Source of the DNA: Pseudomonadota bacterium
Lineage (GTDB): Bacteria > Pseudomonadota > Gammaproteobacteria > Burkholderiales > Methylophilaceae
Direction of reading: 5' to 3'
Assembly (NCBI GenBank): GCA_020053735.1
Contig: JAGVMP010000015.1
Coordinates: 76,708-114,301 of the forward strand
Length of the DNA stretch: 37,594 nt
A program made the position numbers and the translations under genes. A model generated the notes under the pieces. The model made no database searches and was not told the origin of the DNA. It saw only the letters and a program-made list of their open reading frames with translations. Positions 25,461 to 34,365 of the stretch are shown here, piece after piece (the stretch's first letter is position 1; every line of letters starts with the position of its first letter).

Positions 25461-26126
25461 ATGAGTATTTCAATTAATGCAGTTAAACGTGACGTTAAAG
25501 GTACGGGTGCGAGCCGCCGTGCACGTCGCGCTGGCAATGTGCCAGGTGTAGTTTACGGTGGCGCTCAAGCCGCTGTCAACTTAGAGTTAAATCACAAAGA
25601 ATTGTTTTTACAATTCCGTCACGAGGCTTTTCACGCTTCTATTTTAGATTTAATTTTAGATGGTAAAAAAGAAAGCGTGTTACTGCGCGATTACCAAATG
25701 CACCCAGTGCGCAACACTATTCAACACATTGATTTTCAACGTGTTTCTGCCAATGAGAAAATCCATGTAAGAGTGCCTTTCCACTTCCTAAACGAAGACA
25801 CCGCGCCTGGCGTTAAATTAGGTGGCGGCATTGTGGCGCACATCATGACAGAAGCCGAAGTAAGCTGCTTACCGAAGGATTTACCAGAATTTATCGAGGT
25901 AAATGTTGGCGCGCTTGAGCTTGGCGATTCTGTTCACTTGTCTCAAGTCAACCTGCCTAAAGGTGTGGAATTTGTTGCACTTGCGCATGGTAACGACGCG
26001 GCAGTTGCGGCAATTGCCAAAACGCGCGGCGGTGTTTCTGAAGATGAAGCGGCAGATGCTGCTATTGCAGCGGATGCAGCAGCCGAATCTGCGGCAGAAA
26101 CTGCAGTGGATAAAGAGGCCGAATAA
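25461..26126 (+). CDS. rplY: 50S ribosomal protein L25/general stress protein Ctc
   Basis: A 221-residue long-form L25 (TL5/Ctc type) that binds 5S rRNA. The N-terminal L25 domain covers about residues 5-95 (RDVKGTGASRRARRAGNVPGVVYGG and LLRDYQMHPVRNTIQHIDFQRV). The C-terminal beta domain (about 100-190) is followed by a low-complexity acidic/alanine tail of about 25 residues. The Shine-Dalgarno AGGAGC precedes the ATG at good spacing. The prs-rplY-pth-ychF order is standard in the group. A strong terminator follows the gene. Confidence 0.97.
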   Translation: MSISINAVKRDVKGTGASRRARRAGNVPGVVYGGAQAAVNLELNHKELFLQFRHEAFHASILDLILDGKKESVLLRDYQMHPVRNTIQHIDFQRVSANEKIHVRVPFHFLNEDTAPGVKLGGGIVAHIMTEAEVSCLPKDLPEFIEVNVGALELGDSVHLSQVNLPKGVEFVALAHGNDAAVAAIAKTRGGVSEDEAADAAIAADAAAESAAETAVDKEAE

Positions 26127-26140
26127 TTTTTGGCTAATTA

Positions 26141-26174
26141 AAAACGCGCGCTTATCGTTAAGTGCGCGTTTTTT
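26141..26174 (+). terminator. Rho-independent terminator after rplY
   Basis: A long stem formed by AAAACGCGCGCTTA and TTAAGTGCGCGTTTT (one G-T wobble within it) around a short TCG loop, followed directly by a T-run. The flanking A and T runs make it usable on both strands. It separates prs-rplY from pth. Confidence 0.88.
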
Positions 26175-26190
26175 ATTTTAAACTATCAAT

Positions 26191-26775
26191 ATGGGCATTA
26201 AACTTTTTGTAGGTCTTGGCAACCCTGGCGATAAATACGTAGCCACCCGCCACAACGCTGGCTTTTGGTTTGTGGACGCGGTAGCTGCCCAAAACAATAG
26301 CAAGCTAGCGCTAGATGCAAAAATGTTTGGCATTGTTGGCAAGCTTAATTCAGCATTCTCTAAGAATGACACTTGGTTACTCAAACCCACCACATTTATG
26401 AATGCCAGCGGTAAAGCAGTAGCCGCGATGGCTAATTATTACAAAATTACCCCTGCTGAAATTTTAGTGGTGCATGATGAATTAGACTTACCTGCAGGCA
26501 GCGCAAAATTAAAATTTGGCGGTGGTCATGGCGGCCACAATGGCTTAAAAGATATACACGCGGCCTTAGGCACAGCCGATTATTGGCGCTTGCGCTTGGG
26601 CATAGACCACCCAGGTGACCGTAACGAGGTTGTCAACTATGTGTTAAAAGTGCCCGCACGAGAAGAAAATGATGCCCTGCAAGCCAGTATCCATGCGGCC
26701 TGTAGCGTGGTAGATTTAATGCTTAAAGGCGAATTTGAAAGTGCCATGTTAAAATTGCATACAAAAGATAGTTAA
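26191..26775 (+). CDS. pth: Peptidyl-tRNA hydrolase
   Basis: Pth frees tRNA from peptidyl-tRNA that drops off ribosomes. The 194-residue protein has the family's Asn11 (GLGNPG) and the catalytic His21 in RHNAG, the TFMNASG motif, the VVHDELDLPAG segment with the conserved aspartate, and GGGHGGHNGLKDI. Its length is normal. The ATG lies 16 bases after the rplY terminator; no strong Shine-Dalgarno is visible. A dispersed inverted-repeat element lies between pth and ychF. Confidence 0.97.
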   Translation: MGIKLFVGLGNPGDKYVATRHNAGFWFVDAVAAQNNSKLALDAKMFGIVGKLNSAFSKNDTWLLKPTTFMNASGKAVAAMANYYKITPAEILVVHDELDLPAGSAKLKFGGGHGGHNGLKDIHAALGTADYWRLRLGIDHPGDRNEVVNYVLKVPAREENDALQASIHAACSVVDLMLKGEFESAMLKLHTKDS

Positions 26776-26801
26776 TTTTAACTAACGAAATATACGAGCT
26801 G

Positions 26802-26931
26802 TTTTTCCACCTGTATTTTTAAACGAGTACAAGGCGGCAAGGATGAAGCGCCGAAGACAGTACATCGAGTACGGCTAGGCAATGAAGACACAGCCAACAC
26901 AGTAATCGTTTAAAAGACAAACTGGAAAAAA
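26802..26931. repeat. Dispersed inverted-repeat element, copy 2
   Basis: A 130-base non-coding element with imperfect terminal inverted repeats of about 25 bases: the left arm at 26802-26826 begins TTTTTCCA and ends TTTTAAACGA; the right arm at 26906-26931 is its near reverse complement. The core has AGACAGTAC, a 5-base spacer, then GTACGGC, the same layout as the element at 2587-2686. The right arm ends 1 base before the ychF start codon, so its GGAAAAAAG supplies the apparent ribosome binding region of ychF. Confidence 0.6.
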
Positions 26932-26932
26932 G

Positions 26933-28018
26933 ATGAAATGTGGAATTGTAGGCCTACCTAACGTAGGCAAAAGTACGCTTTTTAACGCCATTACCAAGGC
27001 GGGCATTGCGGCAGAGAACTACCCGTTTTGTACCATTGAGCCAAACGTTGGCATTGTAGAAGTGCCTGATACGCGCTTGCAACCGCTAATTGATATTGTG
27101 AAACCACAAAAAGTGCAGCCCGCTATTGTAGAGTTTGTCGATATTGCTGGCTTAGTCGCTGGCGCCTCAAAAGGTGAAGGGCTAGGCAACAAGTTTCTTG
27201 CCAATATTCGCGAAACAGACGCTATTGCACATGTGGTACGCTGCTTTGAAGATGGCAACGTAATTCATGTCGCCAATAAAATTGATCCTCTAAGTGATAT
27301 TGAGGTGATTAATACCGAACTGGCACTGGCAGACATGGAAACCGTTGAAAAAACCATGCAACGCGAAGGCAAAAAAGCTAAAAGTGGCGATAAAGAAGCC
27401 ATTGCGCTGATGGCGGTGCTCGACAAAGTATTGCCATGCTTGAATGAAGCTAAAGCTGTGCGTACATTGGGTTTAGATAACGATGAGTTACAACTGCTTA
27501 AACCGCTATGCCTAATCACCGTAAAACCAGTGATGTATTTAGCCAACGTGGATGAAAAAGGCTTTGAAAATAACCCGTTTTTAGACAAAGTTGTGGCGCT
27601 AGGCAAAGCTGAACACGCGCCAGTCGTGTGCATTTGCGCCAAAATTGAAGGCGAAATCTCAGAGTTGGACGACGAAGACAAATTGCTATTCTTAAGCGAG
27701 CTGGGTCAGGATGAACCTGGCTTAAACCGCGTGATTCGCGCAGCCTATGATTTACTTGGCTTGCAGACCTATTTCACCGCCGGGGTACAGGAAGTACGCG
27801 CTTGGACAGTGAAAAAAGGCGCTACCGCCCCGCAAGCTGCAGGTGTCATCCATACTGACTTTGAGCGTGGCTTTATTCGCGCCGAGGTGATTCAATATGA
27901 CGAATATGTGAAAAACAAAGGTGAGCAAGGTAGCAAAGAAGCTGGGAAAATGCGTTTGGAAGGCAAAGAATATATTGTGCAAGATGGCGATGTGATGCAC
28001 TTTAGGTTTAATGTCTAG
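26933..28018 (+). CDS. ychF: Ribosome-binding ATPase YchF
   Basis: YchF (OLA1 type) is an Obg-family P-loop protein that prefers ATP and binds ribosomes. It is linked to translation and oxidative stress control. The 361-residue protein has G1 GLPNVGKS at 7-14, the FVDIAGLV G3 region and the NVDEKG specificity region, and ends in the TGS domain (from about 280: [19 protein letters not shown] to [11 protein letters not shown]). It follows pth, as in many proteobacteria. Its start codon abuts a repeat element, and a bidirectional terminator shared with the first pqqA copy lies 40 bases downstream. Confidence 0.97.
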
Positions 28019-28057
28019 CCAGGTATGTTTTAATCATCATAGTATTAATTGAGCAAC

Positions 28058-28086
28058 AAAAAGCCCGCATTTAGCGGGCTTTTTTT
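28058..28086. terminator. Bidirectional terminator between ychF and pqqA copy 1
   Basis: A perfect stem AGCCCGC (28062-28068) / GCGGGCT (28074-28080) with a 5-base loop, flanked by A-runs and T-runs. It ends ychF on the plus strand and pqqA on the minus strand. Confidence 0.92.
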
Positions 28087-28098
28087 AAGCGTTTAAGC

Positions 28099-28170
28099 TT
28101 ATTTGTTCATTACGTACATTGTTACTTCAAAGCCAAAACGCATTTCTGTAGCTGCTGGTGTTGTCCACAT
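28099..28170 (-). CDS. pqqA: Coenzyme PQQ precursor peptide PqqA, copy 1
   Basis: A 23-residue peptide starting MWTTPAATEM and ending FGFEVTMYVMNK. This is the PqqA signature: an N-terminal W-x-x-P-A, then E-V-T-M-Y, whose Glu15 and Tyr19 are the residues cross-linked by PqqE to become the PQQ skeleton. The length equals known PqqA peptides. AAAAGGAT lies about 8 bases upstream of the ATG as a ribosome binding site, and an intrinsic terminator follows 12 bases after the stop. No pqqB, C, D or E gene is nearby. An identical peptide is encoded at 31070-31141. The gene is far shorter than usual ORF cut-offs and easily missed. Confidence 0.93.
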   Translation of the reverse strand: MWTTPAATEMRFGFEVTMYVMNK

Positions 28171-28291
28171 GATTCGGTATCCTTTTAAGTTTGGCGATTC
28201 ACAATGTCTCGCTTCATGTATTGCATTATGCACCCTGCTATAAAATCAACGCTATGTGCACTGCGTAAATATTCCTAGTGATTTTACTTAA
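28171..28291 (-). promoter_or_regulatory. Conserved leader/promoter region of pqqA copy 1
   Basis: About 120 bases upstream of pqqA that are shared with copy 2. Blocks kept in both copies (minus-strand reading) include TTGATTTTA, GCATAATGC (a palindrome-like site at 28223-28231), ACATGAAGCGA and CATTGTGA, plus the ribosome binding site. TTGATT and the TAAT block are only about 13-15 bases apart, so a standard sigma-70 promoter is not certain. The conservation itself suggests shared regulation. Confidence 0.5.
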
Positions 28292-28380
28292 AACATTAGA
28301 GAATTTTATGTGATTGATATGCCATGAGAGCCAATATCCATGAGGTCTTTGGGGCATGCTATTTTAACAAAATATGCAAT

Positions 28381-28413
28381 AAAAAAACCCAGTGATTTTC
28401 ACTGAGCTTTTTA
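28381..28413 (-). terminator. Terminator after the tRNA-Gly-like gene
   Basis: A perfect CAGTGA / TCACTG stem (28390-28404) with a 3-base loop. On the minus strand it is followed by GGTTTTTTT, directly downstream of the tRNA-Gly-like gene. Confidence 0.75.
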
Positions 28414-28417
28414 AATT

Positions 28418-28492
28418 TGGAGCGGGAAATAAGTTTCGACCTTACACTTCAACCTTGGAAAGGTTGCGCTCTGCCCCTTAAGCTATTCCCGC
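28418..28492 (-). tRNA. tRNA-Gly (anticodon TCC), atypical
   Basis: A 75-base cloverleaf with encoded CCA. The acceptor stem GCGGGAA/TTCCCGC is perfect, and the anticodon stem CAACC/GGTTG encloses loop TTTCCAA, giving anticodon TCC. The D stem GCTT/GAGC has one T-G pair, and the D loop keeps a GG. The T stem GTAAG/CTTAT has one G-T pair. The T loop reads GTCGAAA, so the nearly universal T54 is replaced by G, and the variable loop has only four bases. The body resembles the usual tRNA-Gly(GCC) from memory, not the usual tRNA-Gly(TCC). It may be a diverged duplicate, a specialised tRNA or a decaying gene. A terminator lies just downstream. Confidence 0.8.
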
Positions 28493-28671
28493 ATTATGTG
28501 TAATTACTTTGTCACATTCTCATACATGTCTATTTGCTAAACAATAGCCCAATGGGGCTAACAAAACACTAAGTAATCAGCATTAAATTGACCCAAAATA
28601 AATAAATGTAGACATTTACTGCTTGCCTGCGTTTTGTAACTGGGGAGTACATTTTTTAACAAGGAGTTTTT

Positions 28672-28986
28672 ATGAAGGTTATACAGATTGTAACAATGGC
28701 AGCTTTAACTTTAGGTTTAACGCAATTGGCTTATGCCAACCACGATGGTGCAGATGGCAAGAACTGCGCACAGAAAAAACATAGCTTGCAAGACAGCGAC
28801 ACCAACAAAGACGGTGCGATCAGCCGTGATGAATTTATGAGCGCACGCCAAGCGCCCGCAGAAGAACATTTTGCCAAGATGGATGCGAATAAAGACGGTA
28901 AAATTGATCAAGCTGAGCGTGATGCAATGAAAGCCAAATGGGAGGAGCATCACAAAAAGCCTGAAGTTAAACCAGAAGCCAAATAA
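28672..28986 (+). CDS. Small exported EF-hand protein
   Basis: A 104-residue protein with a signal peptide (residues 1-22, ending LAYA) and two canonical EF-hand loops: residues 43-54 (DTNKDGAISRDE) and 71-82 (DANKDGKIDQAE). The tail is lysine- and proline-rich. It probably binds calcium or a similar metal in the periplasm. The second loop has Asp at position 9, but neither loop has the position-2 proline that marks lanmodulin. AAGGAG lies at ideal spacing before the ATG. It is a single-gene unit with its own terminator, inside the block bounded by the pqqA repeats. Function is otherwise unknown. Confidence 0.88.
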   Translation: MKVIQIVTMAALTLGLTQLAYANHDGADGKNCAQKKHSLQDSDTNKDGAISRDEFMSARQAPAEEHFAKMDANKDGKIDQAERDAMKAKWEEHHKKPEVKPEAK

Positions 28987-29025
28987 GCAATAAATTAGGC
29001 AAGTTTAAATTTAATAAAAAGCAAT

Positions 29026-29060
29026 AAAGCCCCATGGTGAGCAACCTCGGGGCTTTTTAT
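29026..29060 (+). terminator. Rho-independent terminator after the EF-hand gene
   Basis: AAAGCCCC (29026-29033) pairs with GGGGCTTT (29049-29056), with an inner GGT/ACC pairing, followed by TTAT. It ends the EF-hand transcript. Confidence 0.85.
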
Positions 29061-29086
29061 TGCGTCGCATTAGCCCAAAGAGGTTC

Positions 29087-29115
29087 TTGACACGCTTCGA
29101 CAGCCTGCGTAAATT
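29087..29115 (+). promoter_or_regulatory. Putative sigma-70 promoter of the carbamoyltransferase gene
   Basis: A consensus -35 TTGACA at 29087-29092 is followed after exactly 17 bases by TAAATT (29110-29115) as a -10 box (4 of 6 matches). Transcription would start around 29122, giving a leader of about 110 bases before the ATG at 29233. Confidence 0.55.
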
Positions 29116-29232
29116 CTGTATTGGCTACAATAAATTCATTTTTAATTTAGCTAAACATAACTAAAAAATACCTTCCAAGTCGAAGTTAATAATTTAATAA
29201 AGTAGTTTTTATCAGTTTATAAGGGTGTAAAT

Positions 29233-30918
29233 ATGATAATTTTGGGCATAAATTTTATGTTCCACGACTCTAGCGCTTGCATTTTAAAGGATGGCGAGTT
29301 AGTGGTTGCGCTTGAAGAGGAGCGTTTTACGCGCAATAAGCACGACGTAGTGTTTCCTCACAAAAGTATTGAACAGTGCTTAAAAGTGGCTAAACTGAGT
29401 TTTGATGACATTGACCATGTTGCACTGTCATTTAAGCCCACACTAGATATTCACAGAAAAATTGCTTTTCTGTTTAAGCACCCCTCTAAATTTCTCAAAA
29501 ATTTTAATTTGCACATTTTGCGCTATTACTGGCGCTATCGCACCATCAGCAGATGGCATAAAGCCACATTTAAAAACACTAAAAAACCGCCGATGCATTT
29601 TGTGCCGCACCATCAATCGCACATTGCGGGTAGCTTTTTTTGCTCACCTTATGAAGAAGCTGCATTGTTATCGATGGATGGCTCTGGTGAGTGGGCAACT
29701 GCGTCGCTGGGCTATGGTAAAGGGATTGATGTTACTGAATTTAAACGTATATTTTTCCCTAACTCTATGGGTTCTATTTACGAGGCAGTCACCTACTTCT
29801 GCGGCTTTAAGCCATCTTATGACGAAGGCAAAACCATGGGCTTGGCACCCATGGGCAACAGCGAATTTTTTATTGATGAAGTGCGCAAAATTATCAATGT
29901 GGCGCCTGATGGCGACTTGTTGATTGATTTTGAATATTTTGATTTTGACGATGGTCAGTTTGAATACCTAAGCGATAAGTTTATTCAAACATTTGGCCGC
30001 AGGCGCTTACCACACGAACCTTTTGAACAACATCACATGAATGTAGCGGCGGCTTTTCAGGTGCGGTTAGAAGAAATTGGGCTTGAGCTATGCAAAATTT
30101 TAAAAGCTAAAACCAAGGCTGATTATTTGGTAGTGGCAGGTGGCGTGTCACTCAACAGCGTGATGAATGGCCGTATAGTGCGCGAAAGTGGCTTTAAAGA
30201 TTTATATGTGATGCCGGCCGCGGGCGATAACGGCACCTCTATTGGCGCGGCTTATTATGTGCACAATGCCATTCTAAAGAATCCGCGCCCTGCTCCGCAC
30301 ATGAATCCCTATTTGGGCACAGAATACTCGAACGAGCAAATTGAGTTTGTACTAAAAGAATGTAAATTAAGCTACGAATATCATGAAAACATAGAGCAAA
30401 AAACTGCAGAGCTGTTACATGCAGGCCATATTTTATGCTGGTTCCAGGGCAGAATGGAAATTGGTCCACGCGCCTTGGGTGGCCGCAGTATTATTGCCGA
30501 CCCTACTAAAAAAGAAATGAAAGATAAAATTAATGCGCAAGTGAAACACCGCGAGGCTTATCGCCCATTTGCGCCTTCTGGCATTAAAGAGGTAGCGGCA
30601 GAATACTTTGAAACTAGGGTAGAAGACCCGTTTATGCTAAAAGTCTGCATGGTGAAAAAAGATAAAGTGGATATTTTGCCTGCCATTACGCATGTAGATG
30701 GCAGCGCTAGGCTACAGACTGTAGATGCAAATACGCACCCGCGCTACCACAAAATGATTAGTGAATTTGGCAAGCTTTCTGGTGTGCCAGTGATTCTGAA
30801 CACCAGCTTTAATATTATGGGCGAGCCGATTGTAGAATCACCTTACCATGCCGTACGTTGCTTTTTTTCTACTGGCCTGGATTACTTGGTGATTGGCAAT
30901 TACGTGGTAGAAAAATAA
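29233..30918 (+). CDS. NodU/CmcH-family carbamoyltransferase
   Basis: A 561-residue protein matching the family that moves a carbamoyl group from carbamoyl phosphate to a hydroxyl of a sugar or natural product. The N-terminal Kae1-like domain starts ILGINFMFHDSSA (His11) and holds PHHQSHIAGSFF (metal/substrate histidines near 126-130) and DGSGEW (149-154). The C-terminal YrdC-like domain contains QGRMEIGPRALGGRS and LNTSFNIMGEP. The protein is full length. No glycosyltransferase, polyketide or Nod genes are nearby, so the acceptor is unknown. AAGGGTG lies at suitable spacing before the ATG. The gene lies just inside the second pqqA repeat, whose terminator it probably shares. Confidence 0.92.
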   Translation: MIILGINFMFHDSSACILKDGELVVALEEERFTRNKHDVVFPHKSIEQCLKVAKLSFDDIDHVALSFKPTLDIHRKIAFLFKHPSKFLKNFNLHILRYYWRYRTISRWHKATFKNTKKPPMHFVPHHQSHIAGSFFCSPYEEAALLSMDGSGEWATASLGYGKGIDVTEFKRIFFPNSMGSIYEAVTYFCGFKPSYDEGKTMGLAPMGNSEFFIDEVRKIINVAPDGDLLIDFEYFDFDDGQFEYLSDKFIQTFGRRRLPHEPFEQHHMNVAAAFQVRLEEIGLELCKILKAKTKADYLVVAGGVSLNSVMNGRIVRESGFKDLYVMPAAGDNGTSIGAAYYVHNAILKNPRPAPHMNPYLGTEYSNEQIEFVLKECKLSYEYHENIEQKTAELLHAGHILCWFQGRMEIGPRALGGRSIIADPTKKEMKDKINAQVKHREAYRPFAPSGIKEVAAEYFETRVEDPFMLKVCMVKKDKVDILPAITHVDGSARLQTVDANTHPRYHKMISEFGKLSGVPVILNTSFNIMGEPIVESPYHAVRCFFSTGLDYLVIGNYVVEK

Positions 30919-31012
30919 GCTTAGCTACACTACTTTTTTATATGCCCTGTAGGCCTTATGAATATTGCCTCACAGAGCATATGTTTTGATAAGTATCAGA
31001 TTGATGAGCAAC

Positions 31013-31039
31013 AAAAAGCCCGCACTTAGCGGGCTTTTG
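31013..31039. terminator. Bidirectional terminator between carbamoyltransferase and pqqA copy 2
   Basis: A stem AGCCCGC (31017-31023) / GCGGGCT (31029-31035) with loop ACTTA, flanked by A and T runs, equivalent to the terminator of copy A. The T-run is interrupted by one G on the plus strand. Confidence 0.9.
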
Positions 31040-31069
31040 TTTAAGCGTTTAAGCTTATATTTGTTCAAC

Positions 31070-31141
31070 TTACTTATTCATAACATACATTGTAACTTCA
31101 AAGCCAAAACGCATTTCTGTAGCTGCTGGTGTTGTCCACAT
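31070..31141 (-). CDS. pqqA: Coenzyme PQQ precursor peptide PqqA, copy 2
   Basis: Encodes the same 23 residues as the copy at 28099-28170, with the conserved E-V-T-M-Y core (Glu15, Tyr19). The DNA differs at five codons (two Val, one Tyr, one Asn, one Lys), and every change is a silent third-position change. AAAAAGGAAA lies upstream as a ribosome binding site, and an intrinsic terminator is downstream. It lies after the MORN-repeat gene on the same strand, but has its own conserved leader. The processing genes pqqB-E must be elsewhere in the genome. Confidence 0.93.
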   Translation of the reverse strand: MWTTPAATEMRFGFEVTMYVMNK

Positions 31142-31260
31142 GATAGTTTCCTTTTTAGTTTGGCGTCTCACAATGATTCGCTTCATGTGTTGCATTATGC
31201 GCCACATACTAAAATCAACCCTGTGCGCTTAACGTAATGTTGACTAGTGATTTTACTTAA
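31142..31260 (-). promoter_or_regulatory. Conserved leader/promoter region of pqqA copy 2
   Basis: Shares the same blocks as the copy 1 leader, including GCATAATGC (31192-31200), TTGATTTTA and ACATGAAGCGA, while the bases between the blocks have diverged. It fills the whole gap between the MORN gene stop and pqqA. Confidence 0.5.
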
Positions 31261-31722
31261 TCACTCCTTAATTTCTTGACCATCTTTGTAAGTAGCCTTG
31301 TATTTAACGCTACCATCTTTATTCCATGCGGTCTCCACACCTTCTTTTTTACCATCTACAAAATTGGCTTGCACGCGTTTTTGACCATTATCGTACCATT
31401 GCGTAAAACTGCCATGCTCGCGCCCTTCTTTATAATTAGCCTCTAGCTTGATTTGGCCGTTTTCATACCATTGATTCCACACGCCATCTTCTTTGTCATC
31501 TACATAATTGGTTTGAATCTGCTTTTTACCACTCGGATACCAAAATGTTTCTATGCCTTGCTTCTTGCCTTTTATCACATTGACTTCGTACTTCAGTTTT
31601 CCGTCGGCAAAATGCTCTATTTGCTTACCTGTAAAGTTTTTATCAAAAATACCAGTTGCAAAGGCAGTTGCGTTAAATGCTAAAAAACATGCTGCAGTCA
31701 AAAGTGTTGTTAATTTTTTCAT
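31261..31722 (-). CDS. Exported MORN-repeat protein (YwqK-like)
   Basis: A 153-residue protein with a signal peptide (residues 1-22, ending ATAFA) followed by about five tandem units of 22-24 residues of the MORN_2 type. Each unit has a pattern like W-Y-x-N-G-Q-x-K and Y-x-x-G-x-x-x-G, as in FTQWYDNGQKRVQANFVDGK. Such proteins are often labelled 'YwqK family antitoxin', but no toxin gene is adjacent and the signal peptide argues for a periplasmic or surface structural role. Its stop codon coincides with the edge of the pqqA repeat. Confidence 0.85.
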   Translation of the reverse strand: MKKLTTLLTAACFLAFNATAFATGIFDKNFTGKQIEHFADGKLKYEVNVIKGKKQGIETFWYPSGKKQIQTNYVDDKEDGVWNQWYENGQIKLEANYKEGREHGSFTQWYDNGQKRVQANFVDGKKEGVETAWNKDGSVKYKATYKDGQEIKE

Positions 31723-31806
31723 GTTTATTTCTCTTTTAAAAACCTTATTTAGGAGTCAGAATAAGCGTAATTGTTCCAATTACTACATAATAAAAAAGGA
31801 AATAAT

Positions 31807-32499
31807 ATGACTGCAAACCAAGTACTAATCACCGGTGCTAACCGTGGTCTTGGGCTAGAGTTTACCAAACAATACGCCGCTGATGGTTGGTTCGTACTGG
31901 CGTGCTGTCGCCACCCACAATCGGCAATGGCTTTGCAGACGCTAGCAGCAGCGCATGGTAACGTGAAAATACACGCATTAGATGTGGGTGATTTTGCGCA
32001 AATTGATGCCTTAGCTTTACAGCTTAAGCATGAAAGTATTGACCTGCTGCTGAACAACGCTGGCGTTTACCCTAGCAGTAGTTTTGGTGACACCAATTAT
32101 AGTGAATGGGCAGATGGCTTTAAAATTAACAGTATGGTGCCACTTAAAATGGCCGAGGCCTTTGTGCAGCACATATCGCGCGGCCAACTCAAAAAAATCG
32201 CTACACTTTCTAGCAAAATGGGTAGCATAGACGACAACAGCAGCGGCGAGAGCTACAGCTACCGCACCAGCAAAGCCGCAGTAAATATGGCGATGAAAAG
32301 CCTATCAATAGACCTAAGACCGTACGGCATTAGTGTAGTGACGCTGCATCCAGGCTGGGTACAAACTGACATGGGTGGCAGCAACGCCCTGATTAACACA
32401 CAAACCAGTGTGGCAGGCATGCGCAAAGTCATTGCAGATTTAAACTTAAGTAATACGGGGAATTTTATTGCTTATGATGGTCAAGCCATTAATTGGTAA
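31807..32499 (+). CDS. Short-chain dehydrogenase/reductase
   Basis: A 230-residue SDR from the ATG at 31807, which is preceded by AAAGGAAAT. An in-frame TTG at 31771 would add 12 residues unlike SDR N-termini. The cofactor motif TGANRGLG is at residues 9-16, then LLNNAGVYP (NNAG motif), and the catalytic YRTSK (YxxxK) with a preceding serine-rich TLSSKMGS. It resembles the C-factor/CsgA-like group of SDRs; the substrate cannot be read from sequence. It is divergent from the MORN gene and convergent with the COG3146 gene. Confidence 0.92.
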   Translation: MTANQVLITGANRGLGLEFTKQYAADGWFVLACCRHPQSAMALQTLAAAHGNVKIHALDVGDFAQIDALALQLKHESIDLLLNNAGVYPSSSFGDTNYSEWADGFKINSMVPLKMAEAFVQHISRGQLKKIATLSSKMGSIDDNSSGESYSYRTSKAAVNMAMKSLSIDLRPYGISVVTLHPGWVQTDMGGSNALINTQTSVAGMRKVIADLNLSNTGNFIAYDGQAINW

Positions 32500-32519
32500 A
32501 GGCGCCTGACGGCAGGAAA

Positions 32520-33668
32520 TTAGCCCGCTTTAAACGGTGCACGCTGTTCTAGCTCACTCACATAAGCGGCAATGCCCGCTTGCTCGCGTACTAAAAACTG
32601 TTGAATCGCTAATTCAAAATCTGCATGTGCAATTTTGTGATATGAGCAGGTTGGGCGAGCCTCAAAACCACGCGCTAATTTGTGTTCGCCTTGTGCCCCA
32701 CCTTCAAAATACTTAATATTTTCTGCAATACAAAATTGCTGAGCTTGGTAATAACACAGCTCAAAATGTAAGCCAGAAATGAATTGAACTGTGCCCCAGT
32801 AGCGCCCATACAACGTAGTTTCATTGTAAATATTCAGCGTGCTGGCAATTGGCTTGTCGTCAATTTGCGCCACCATTAATAAAACATTGTTTGGCATGGT
32901 GTTGCCAATTTCGGCAAAAAAGGCGCGTGTTAAATACGGTGTGGAATGATGTTCGCGATAAGTGTTGGCATAACACTGGTAAAAAAAGTCCCAGTCGTTT
33001 GCAGTAATCTCTGCACCTTTAATCCACTTGCAGGTGACCCCAGCATGTTGAATTTTTTTGCGTTCTTGATGAATTTTTTTGCGCTTATCATGGCTCAGTG
33101 TCGCTAAAAACTCCTCAAAATTTGCGTAATTTTTATTACACCACCTAAACTGTACGCCAGTGCGCTTCAACCAACCAGCAGCTTCAAACTGAGATGCACA
33201 TGTGTCATCTGGAAATAGCACATGAGCACTGGAAAGCTTGTGCTGCTGCATACCGCCCTCAATCGCGTCTATCATCAGACTTTTTACATGATCATCTTTA
33301 GCTAACAAGCGGACACTAGTGATTGGCGAGAATGGAATCGCACATAGTAGCTTTGGGTAATAATTTAAACCGCTACGCTGATAAGCATCGGCCCACGCCC
33401 AATCAAACACGTATTCACCGTAGGAATGGCTTTTTAAATACATTGGTATGGCGCCAATGAGCTGGCCATTTTGTTTGGCGACCAAAGGATAAGGGTTCCA
33501 GCCCGTGCTGTGACCCACGCTACCAGAATGCTCTAATGCACTTAAAAATTCATGACTTAATACTGGCGTGCCGTCGGTGAGTGCATTCCATTGTTTAGCA
33601 TCAATTCCATCTAAACTGGGTAATAGTTCAACCGAAATGTTTTGTGGAGTATGGGACTTTAACTGCAT
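32520..33668 (-). CDS. COG3146-type GNAT/FemAB-like acyltransferase
   Basis: A 382-residue protein of the COG3146 (DUF482) family, related to the GNAT/FemAB acyltransferase fold. Diagnostic stretches are the SHEFLSALEHSGSVG segment near the N-terminus, FLATLSHDKRKKIHQERKKI in the middle, and YFEGGAQGEHKLARGFE near residue 320. No signal or membrane segment is present. Members are conserved in many proteobacteria without an assigned substrate. The gene is probably monocistronic, convergent with the SDR gene. Confidence 0.86.
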   Translation of the reverse strand: MQLKSHTPQNISVELLPSLDGIDAKQWNALTDGTPVLSHEFLSALEHSGSVGHSTGWNPYPLVAKQNGQLIGAIPMYLKSHSYGEYVFDWAWADAYQRSGLNYYPKLLCAIPFSPITSVRLLAKDDHVKSLMIDAIEGGMQQHKLSSAHVLFPDDTCASQFEAAGWLKRTGVQFRWCNKNYANFEEFLATLSHDKRKKIHQERKKIQHAGVTCKWIKGAEITANDWDFFYQCYANTYREHHSTPYLTRAFFAEIGNTMPNNVLLMVAQIDDKPIASTLNIYNETTLYGRYWGTVQFISGLHFELCYYQAQQFCIAENIKYFEGGAQGEHKLARGFEARPTCSYHKIAHADFELAIQQFLVREQAGIAAYVSELEQRAPFKAG

Positions 33669-33786: not shown

Positions 33787-34365
33787 CTAAATGGGTCGTT
33801 TACGTCCGTTGGCAGCTTGCTTATTAGCTTTTGATTTGCTTTTGTCTTTAATAGCAGCTTCCACTTCTTCAATTTTCTGTGCTTCCATTTTGGCTTCAGC
33901 GGCTTTTTGACGTTCTATTTGTTTAGCTTGTGCCAGTTGCAGCTCTTCTAACGTAATCACTTCATCTTCGTCAATATCTACGTAGCTAAAGTGTCGCGCC
34001 ACTTGTGGCAGACAATGCGTCGCTTCCTCACGGTCTAACGAATCATCGTTATCCCTATTGCACTCGTTAAAGCGTTTTTCCACGCTCTCTTGCATAGCCT
34101 TGCGTTTTTGTGCAATTTGATTGTGCTCTGGATCAGTCGATTTTGCGTAATCCCCCAGTGCTTTGCGTAGGCGGGCGCGATCATCAGGACTAAAATTGTG
34201 TTCTAAAGTCTGCTCTATGGCGCTGGTATCAGCGTCATCTACTATCGATTTATCCTCTGCAATAAAATTATTTTTACCGCCAGCAAATACTGGCAACACC
34301 AAGCTGGTACCCAATACAAACAGAATTGGTGTGCTTGCTAAATAAAAATGTGCTTTAAAACCCAT
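33787..34365 (-). CDS. Membrane-anchored or exported EF-hand protein
   Basis: A 192-residue protein with an N-terminal hydrophobic segment (about residues 7-28, ending PVFAGG) that may be a signal peptide. Two EF-hand loops are at 103-114 (NRDNDDSLDREE) and 130-141 (DIDEDEVITLEE). The first has Asn at position 1 and Asp at position 9, and its helices carry two cysteines (102 and 118). The C-terminal 45 residues are a lysine/glutamate-rich helix. It probably binds metal outside the cytoplasm; function unknown. The divergent OmpR-type gene starts 250 bases upstream. Confidence 0.82.
   Translation of the reverse strand: MGFKAHFYLASTPILFVLGTSLVLPVFAGGKNNFIAEDKSIVDDADTSAIEQTLEHNFSPDDRARLRKALGDYAKSTDPEHNQIAQKRKAMQESVEKRFNECNRDNDDSLDREEATHCLPQVARHFSYVDIDEDEVITLEELQLAQAKQIERQKAAEAKMEAQKIEEVEAAIKDKSKSKANKQAANGRKRPI

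Follow-up and report, generated by a model that had tools for sequence, protein, structure and literature searches.

The window analysed here, a stretch of 37,594 nucleotides on contig JAGVMP010000015.1 of a Methylophilaceae genome (GCA_020053735.1), carries two copies of pqqA, the gene for the peptide precursor of pyrroloquinoline quinone (PQQ), and each copy is preceded by a palindrome, here called the operator, that recurs before pqqA genes in the genome, the genus and the family. Both genes lie on the minus strand, and a plus-strand reading of the same spans yields no PqqA; the initial annotation had given no strand. As that annotation had claimed, positions 28099-28170 (copy 1) and 31070-31141 (copy 2) translate to one and the same peptide, MWTTPAATEMRFGFEVTMYVMNK followed by a stop, in which the motif EVTMY includes the glutamate and the tyrosine that form PQQ. 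The two are among the five matches of the genome to the PqqA model TIGR02107, with 36.4 bits each against a curated cut-off of 20 bits. Their differences, at codons 16, 19, 20, 22 and 23, are all synonymous, as had been stated; if single changes were random in type, five silent changes out of five would be expected with a probability of about 0.0003 (0.0008 when transitions are weighted). The expression signals proposed earlier were recovered as well: a Shine-Dalgarno-like sequence before each copy, read by eye, leaders that are about 86% alike over 125 bp, and at each copy a GC-rich hairpin with a U tract whose folding beats 200 of 200 shuffles. Because each copy has its own terminator, both look like stand-alone transcription units. 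A simple terminator scan lists neither hairpin, and a promoter scan lists no promoter for either copy. The parts of the two units are as follows.

28060..28082, minus strand: terminator hairpin of copy 1 (folding against shuffles, z -4.0)
28099..28170, minus strand: pqqA copy 1, 23 residues and stop (translation, TIGR02107 match)
28180..28187, minus strand: Shine-Dalgarno-like AAAAGGA of copy 1 (read from the sequence)
28225..28230, minus strand: putative -10-like CATAAT within GCATAATGC, copy 1 (read from the sequence, absent from the promoter-scan list)
28275..28291 (C1:104982-104998), minus strand: operator of copy 1, TTAAGTAAAATCACTAG (whole-genome scan, zero mismatches to YTWMKKAWWWTCAYKAG)
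31015..31037, minus strand: terminator hairpin of copy 2 (folding against shuffles, z -3.8)
31070..31141, minus strand: pqqA copy 2, peptide identical to that of copy 1 (translation, TIGR02107 match)
31148..31156, minus strand: Shine-Dalgarno-like AAAAAGGA of copy 2 (read from the sequence)
31194..31199, minus strand: putative -10-like CATAAT within GCATAATGC, copy 2 (read from the sequence, absent from the promoter-scan list)
31244..31260 (C1:107951-107967), minus strand: operator of copy 2, TTAAGTAAAATCACTAG (whole-genome scan, zero mismatches to YTWMKKAWWWTCAYKAG)

A search for further copies in the genome (2.44 Mb on 19 contigs) showed that its five TIGR02107 matches encode one peptide and that all ten pairs among them differ synonymously only, which extends the silent-only pattern genome-wide. 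The description of the window copies as orphans, with the other pqq genes elsewhere, also agrees with the genome, as the sole pqqE over cut-off (498 bits, so that a PQQ-making enzyme is present in the same genome) lies on another contig (C5) near a different pqqA, the neighbours of which recur at the same site in relatives; pqqB, pqqC and pqqD were assigned by position and look only, not by models of their own. Across the Methylophilaceae, pqqA is present in 149 of 150 genomes, at 1 to 12 matches per genome. Stand-alone duplicates of pqqA are a well-documented feature. The passages of PMC4109929 available to us report 3-12 pqqA per genome in this family, usually alongside a single set of the remaining pqq genes and often in five copies, and state that multiple copies had been noted earlier, so that this part of the observation was already known; neither a shared operator nor a link to pqqU or a trans regulator is described in them. 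Similarly, the excerpts of PMC9851590 describe a strain, apparently of Hyphomicrobium, with five pqqA copies, in which pqqA1 and a stand-alone pqqA3 are expressed far above the rest; stand-alone copies thus exist there as in the window, and one of them is strongly transcribed.

An upstream palindrome common to scattered pqqA genes

The leaders of pqqA differ between sites, yet a 17-base palindrome, CTMATGA-NNN-TCATKAG, recurs in them. Gibbs motif sampling gave mixed output, in which the palindrome was spotted, and it was then tested by pattern scans. In the genome of the window, CTMATGANNNTCATKAG is found at no more than one mismatch in two places, both before pqqA, and the looser YTWMKKAWWWTCAYKAG matches without mismatch in exactly four places, each of them upstream of a pqqA and two of them at the window copies; the fifth pqqA has YTWMKKAWWWTCAYKAG upstream with one mismatch. 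No PQQ-dehydrogenase gene of this genome has an operator among the zero-mismatch places. We further collected 62 pqqA copies from 15 genomes of the genus, grouped by their neighbouring genes, and found the loose operator 80-180 bp upstream at one mismatch or fewer in 55 of them and at two or fewer in 59, as compared with 0.1 and about 1.0 in shuffles.

A similar picture was obtained in the rest of the family. Twenty-one further genomes, chosen for having all their pqqA listed, were scanned, and 17 of them were counted (G014, G033, G064 and G073 were left out). All 38 exact operators in these 17 genomes precede a pqqA, the ATG of which follows after 90-131 bp. Of the 62 pqqA genes there, 50 have an operator at one mismatch or fewer. 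The remaining 12 comprise ten with two to three mismatches, one truncated where its contig stops, and one with four mismatches at best, which is the second member of a tandem pair. Among 30 pqqA loci of other genera, the operator was present at two mismatches or fewer in 28, at 126-145 bp before the ATG. A weaker half-site follows the operator after about 23 bp; it reads tTTCatg in other genera, and two sites of the genus have TTTTAAg. Apart from pqqA, one 15-base core match with one mismatch was observed in L302, right where the xoxF reading frame begins.

An operator common to scattered pqqA genes is apparently new, and it was not reported in the open-licence literature that we searched, including searches with six literal operator sequences. 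A truncated pqqA2 promoter has been used in Methylovorus sp. MP688, as cited (reference 20) in the accessible text of PMC9851590, and that promoter paper might already map an upstream element; since the search covered open-licence literature only and this paper lies outside it, novelty is not proven.

Operators at PQQ uptake genes, in other families and in viruses

Two near-operators that are not at pqqA, in two genera, precede the same TonB-dependent receptor gene adjoining a moeA-like gene. For two receptors of the family that have the core operator, the best solved relatives are PqqU/YncD (PDB 9c4o, 6v81; E value 1e-126 or lower for both), the PQQ importer treated in the portions of PMC12124388 available. 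The NCBIfam model for PqqU (NF041535) is by far the best for the receptor, yet eleven receptors score below its cut-off (539-682 bits against 1200), and we therefore call these genes pqqU-like. Relatives were found in 31 of 61 genomes searched, 24 of these in the family. Of the 23 family genes that were scored (L333 was skipped for length; G004 and G005 had entered via the motif itself), 11 have the 15-base core upstream without mismatch, 17 with at most one mismatch and 21 with at most two, as compared with expectations of 0, 0.12 and 1.18 from the remaining sequence of these loci and of 0, 0.14 and 2.1 from shuffles. From missing synteny, the passages of PMC12124388 at hand infer that regulation of pqqU is as a rule independent of that of the pqq operon, four syntenic Burkholderiales genomes excepted; the shared box suggests that joint control of pqqU and pqq genes may be more widespread in this order. 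We do not claim a box at pqqU of E. coli, where the best core match has two mismatches and a Fur-like look.

In order to survey the order, 250 genomes were scanned with the exact operator (A or T in the middle), which was present in 38 genomes, seven of them of the same family, while a reversed-pattern control gave 0 in all. Outside the family, 49 exact operators were found in 31 genomes of 13 families. A pqqA pattern lies within 320 bp of 41 of these (42 of 50 if one operator of the family itself is included), and three more have a pqqA at 638 bp, a pqqU-like gene 110 bp downstream or pqqB 399 bp downstream, so that 44 of the 49 stand beside PQQ genes. One genome, G165, has two pqqA genes with exact operators. 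The other five exact operators (L371, L376, L380, L390, L396) have no recognised PQQ gene nearby and are taken as chance or unknown; one such site has, at a distance of 192 bp, a gene that looks rubrerythrin-like by eye.

Paired operators, 4.4-5.5 kb apart on one contig and pointing away from each other, occur in 13 of the 31 genomes. The loci read in detail contain tonB, prolyl aminopeptidase, histidine kinase and response regulator genes between the two operators, with pqqA before pqqB at one side and a second pqqA at the other. Seven loci (L378, L379, L383, L385, L399, L400, L401) have pqqA followed by a pqqU-like gene. The regulator was found in the loci of 23 of the 31 genomes, from 10 families, with 67-92% identity to the copy in L388, and in 20 of these 23 genomes the match lies within 72 bp of an operator; regulator or kinase is present in the loci of 26 of the 31. 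The L388 protein exceeds the cut-offs for a receiver (PF00072) and a GerE domain (PF00196), and the other copies were assigned by their similarity to it. It belongs to no named NCBIfam equivalog, the best of 25 matches listed being UvrY/SirA/GacA (207 bits against 280). As a conserved neighbour of the operators, it is proposed to be their cognate regulator, and the two-component system it forms with the kinase is most likely the reader of the operator, judging from this gene context. One operator of L402 separates pqqA from divergently oriented kinase-regulator genes, whilst the operator of L373 and L378 stands between pqqA and the genes from tonB to the regulator; these layouts would fit autoregulation. 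A LuxR-type activator of Pseudomonas, AgmR/ErbR (PedR1), is held likely to raise the PQQ biosynthesis genes (PMC12997753). It shares the LuxR type with our candidate but differs in gene neighbourhood, and the available text of PMC12997753 mentions no binding motif or palindrome.

By analogy with the other families, a regulator was sought in the window's genome beside the prolyl aminopeptidase next to xoxF, and was absent there. The aminopeptidase-like gene itself is divergent from xoxF (L406 7129-10270, G000:C14), and its homologs adjoin PQQ regulator genes in other families; the protein might have a role in PqqA breakdown.

Viruses of methylotrophs are known to carry pqqA (PMC7678222), and the passages of that source do not mention operator look-alikes. 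We found at least 120 viral stretches with a pqqA of this type (L162-L281), of which 116 have enough upstream sequence and 91 are non-redundant; the shorter viral contigs may contain some host sequence. Among the stretches listed, the operator is present at two mismatches or fewer in 14 of the 91 upstream regions, against 0.25 in shuffles, and at three or fewer in 32, against 2.54. One viral operator is exact (L180), and most viral copies have no recognisable operator.

A probable PQQ-supply regulon and its alternatives

Taken together, these data demonstrate, as far as the comparison of genomes goes, a common cis element that is strongly associated with PQQ genes, and a conserved neighbouring gene of a suitable kind. 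The best explanation, which we consider probable, is a PQQ-supply regulon with a common operator, in which pqqA copies would be switched by an activator and uptake would be adjusted in parallel. The window genes would then be two of five pqqA genes for one PQQ precursor peptide, controlled in trans. Bound some 65 bp upstream of the likely transcription start, an activator would switch the copies together, and several units under one regulator would multiply the supply of a peptide that is consumed one per PQQ, while PQQ uptake would rise along with the precursor. From the neighbourhoods in other families, the activator would be a response regulator of the NarL/LuxR type with a HAMP-PAS-HisKA_3 kinase, and candidate signals are lack of PQQ, methanol and lanthanide.

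Several observations weigh against this explanation. Relatives of the regulator are absent from the loci of the window's own family that were examined, the whole genome of the window not having been searched for it, and this genome has no pqqU-like gene at E 1e-60. Here, one-mismatch matches to YTWMKKAWWWTCAYKAG are about as frequent as in the control (10 and 14 against 9 and 12), and most of the stray ones examined sit within unrelated open reading frames. Three copies of the genus, stand-alone or other, have three to five mismatches, one of them five, and of three pqqA genes in G150, outside the family, one has the exact core and the others have two and three mismatches. The core at one mismatch or fewer precedes only one of the five pqqU-like genes scored outside the family (six loci, L329 skipped). 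Moreover, as the patterns were designed on members of the sets, the sensitivity figures given above lean upward. Finally, the excerpts of PMC9851590 report strongly unequal expression of pqqA copies.

Gene dosage, which had been proposed as the reason for the copies, is plausible in itself. As a full account it would hold that extra precursor is useful and that the upstream likeness is a by-product of pqqA being copied as a unit with its promoter and terminator. The 86% likeness of the window leaders fits such copying, as do the close pqqA pairs at the same neighbourhood in two other genomes. Across neighbourhoods, genera and families, however, the leaders share mainly the operator, the following half-site and the -10-like box, and the operator core is also found before pqqU-like genes, which are unrelated to pqqA. 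We regard plain dosage as a rather unlikely explanation.

The history of the copies bears on a further alternative, namely that gene conversion, rather than selection on each copy, keeps the window copies alike and their differences silent. The first 15 codons of the two genes are identical and all five differences fall in the last eight, as conversion might leave them. In the genus, copies from different genomes at the same neighbourhood are 0.945 alike, as compared with 0.918 at different neighbourhoods, a difference reached in 0 of 1000 sets of shuffled labels (this comparison excludes five copies, including a decayed one, that have no neighbourhood in common with others). Copies at different sites inside one genome are intermediate (0.930), slightly above the value between genomes, so that some gene conversion, or a shared codon habit, is possible. 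The claim that both copies are under selection therefore holds in part: retention of copies at their sites is supported, but the copies do not split cleanly by site. The 60 copies left after two decayed ones were dropped have 43 coding sequences and only 3 peptides, in a survey whose pattern requires most of the PqqA core and so under-counts decayed copies and favours conserved ones. Given this clustering by neighbourhood and the constancy of the peptides, conversion as the main cause appears improbable. Non-silent decay in relatives, which had been named as contrary evidence, was seen in two of the 62 genus copies, which have altered residues (G068_L082, G068:C6:84656-84712; G089_L111, G089:C3:75680-75736); neither is at the window's neighbourhood, and they indicate that copies can be lost.

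That the box is a site for a metal regulator of the Fur family is improbable. In favour of this reading, the core resembles the Fur consensus (CTAATGAWAATCATTAG, similar to the classical Fur box), the uptake gene encodes a TonB-dependent receptor, and the E. coli pqqU-yncE spacer holds ATAATGATTACCATT. Against it, PQQ genes account for nearly all exact sites (38 of 38; 44 of 49), whereas Fur would be expected to act at many iron genes, and the conserved neighbour is a LuxR-type regulator; no search aimed at canonical Fur boxes was made.

We return to the regulon. A wider reading, to which we give somewhat less than even odds, is that a dedicated NarL-type two-component system sets PQQ supply in many bacteria of the order through one operator, acting jointly on scattered pqqA and uptake genes, and that the operator of viruses lets their pqqA answer to the host regulator. 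The passages of PMC4109929 note the 3-12 copies of this 23-codon gene without an explanation, and the common operator makes the question testable: it predicts one signal for the copies and for PQQ uptake and names a candidate sensor-regulator pair. It also helps to annotate genes that readily escape notice, is relevant to strains for PQQ production, and suggests a way in which viruses could exploit the methanol oxidation of their hosts.

Between the two window copies lie three further features; Rfam at the gathering threshold finds nothing but the tRNA in 26000-33000.

28418..28492, minus strand: tRNA-Gly, with no part in the mechanism (Rfam)
28672..28986, plus strand: small EF-hand protein, without known link (Pfam)
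29233..30918, plus strand: carbamoyltransferase, without known link (in this genome only among the genus neighbourhoods compared)

Several other species also have pqqA at the neighbourhood of copy 2, where FemAB-like, SDR and MORN genes lie upstream, and two other genomes (G089 and G111) have a close pqqA pair at a neighbourhood of this type. Copy 1 looks like a further copy at the place of copy 2, which would now be split off by the carbamoyltransferase gene, the EF-hand gene and the tRNA-Gly. The carbamoyltransferase was rejected as a member of a pqqA module, its 89% relative in L072 having other neighbours. Two small proteins of the EF-hand type are encoded near pqqA (28672-28986 and, below the Pfam cut-off, 33787-34365), and are candidates for the binding of calcium or lanthanide.

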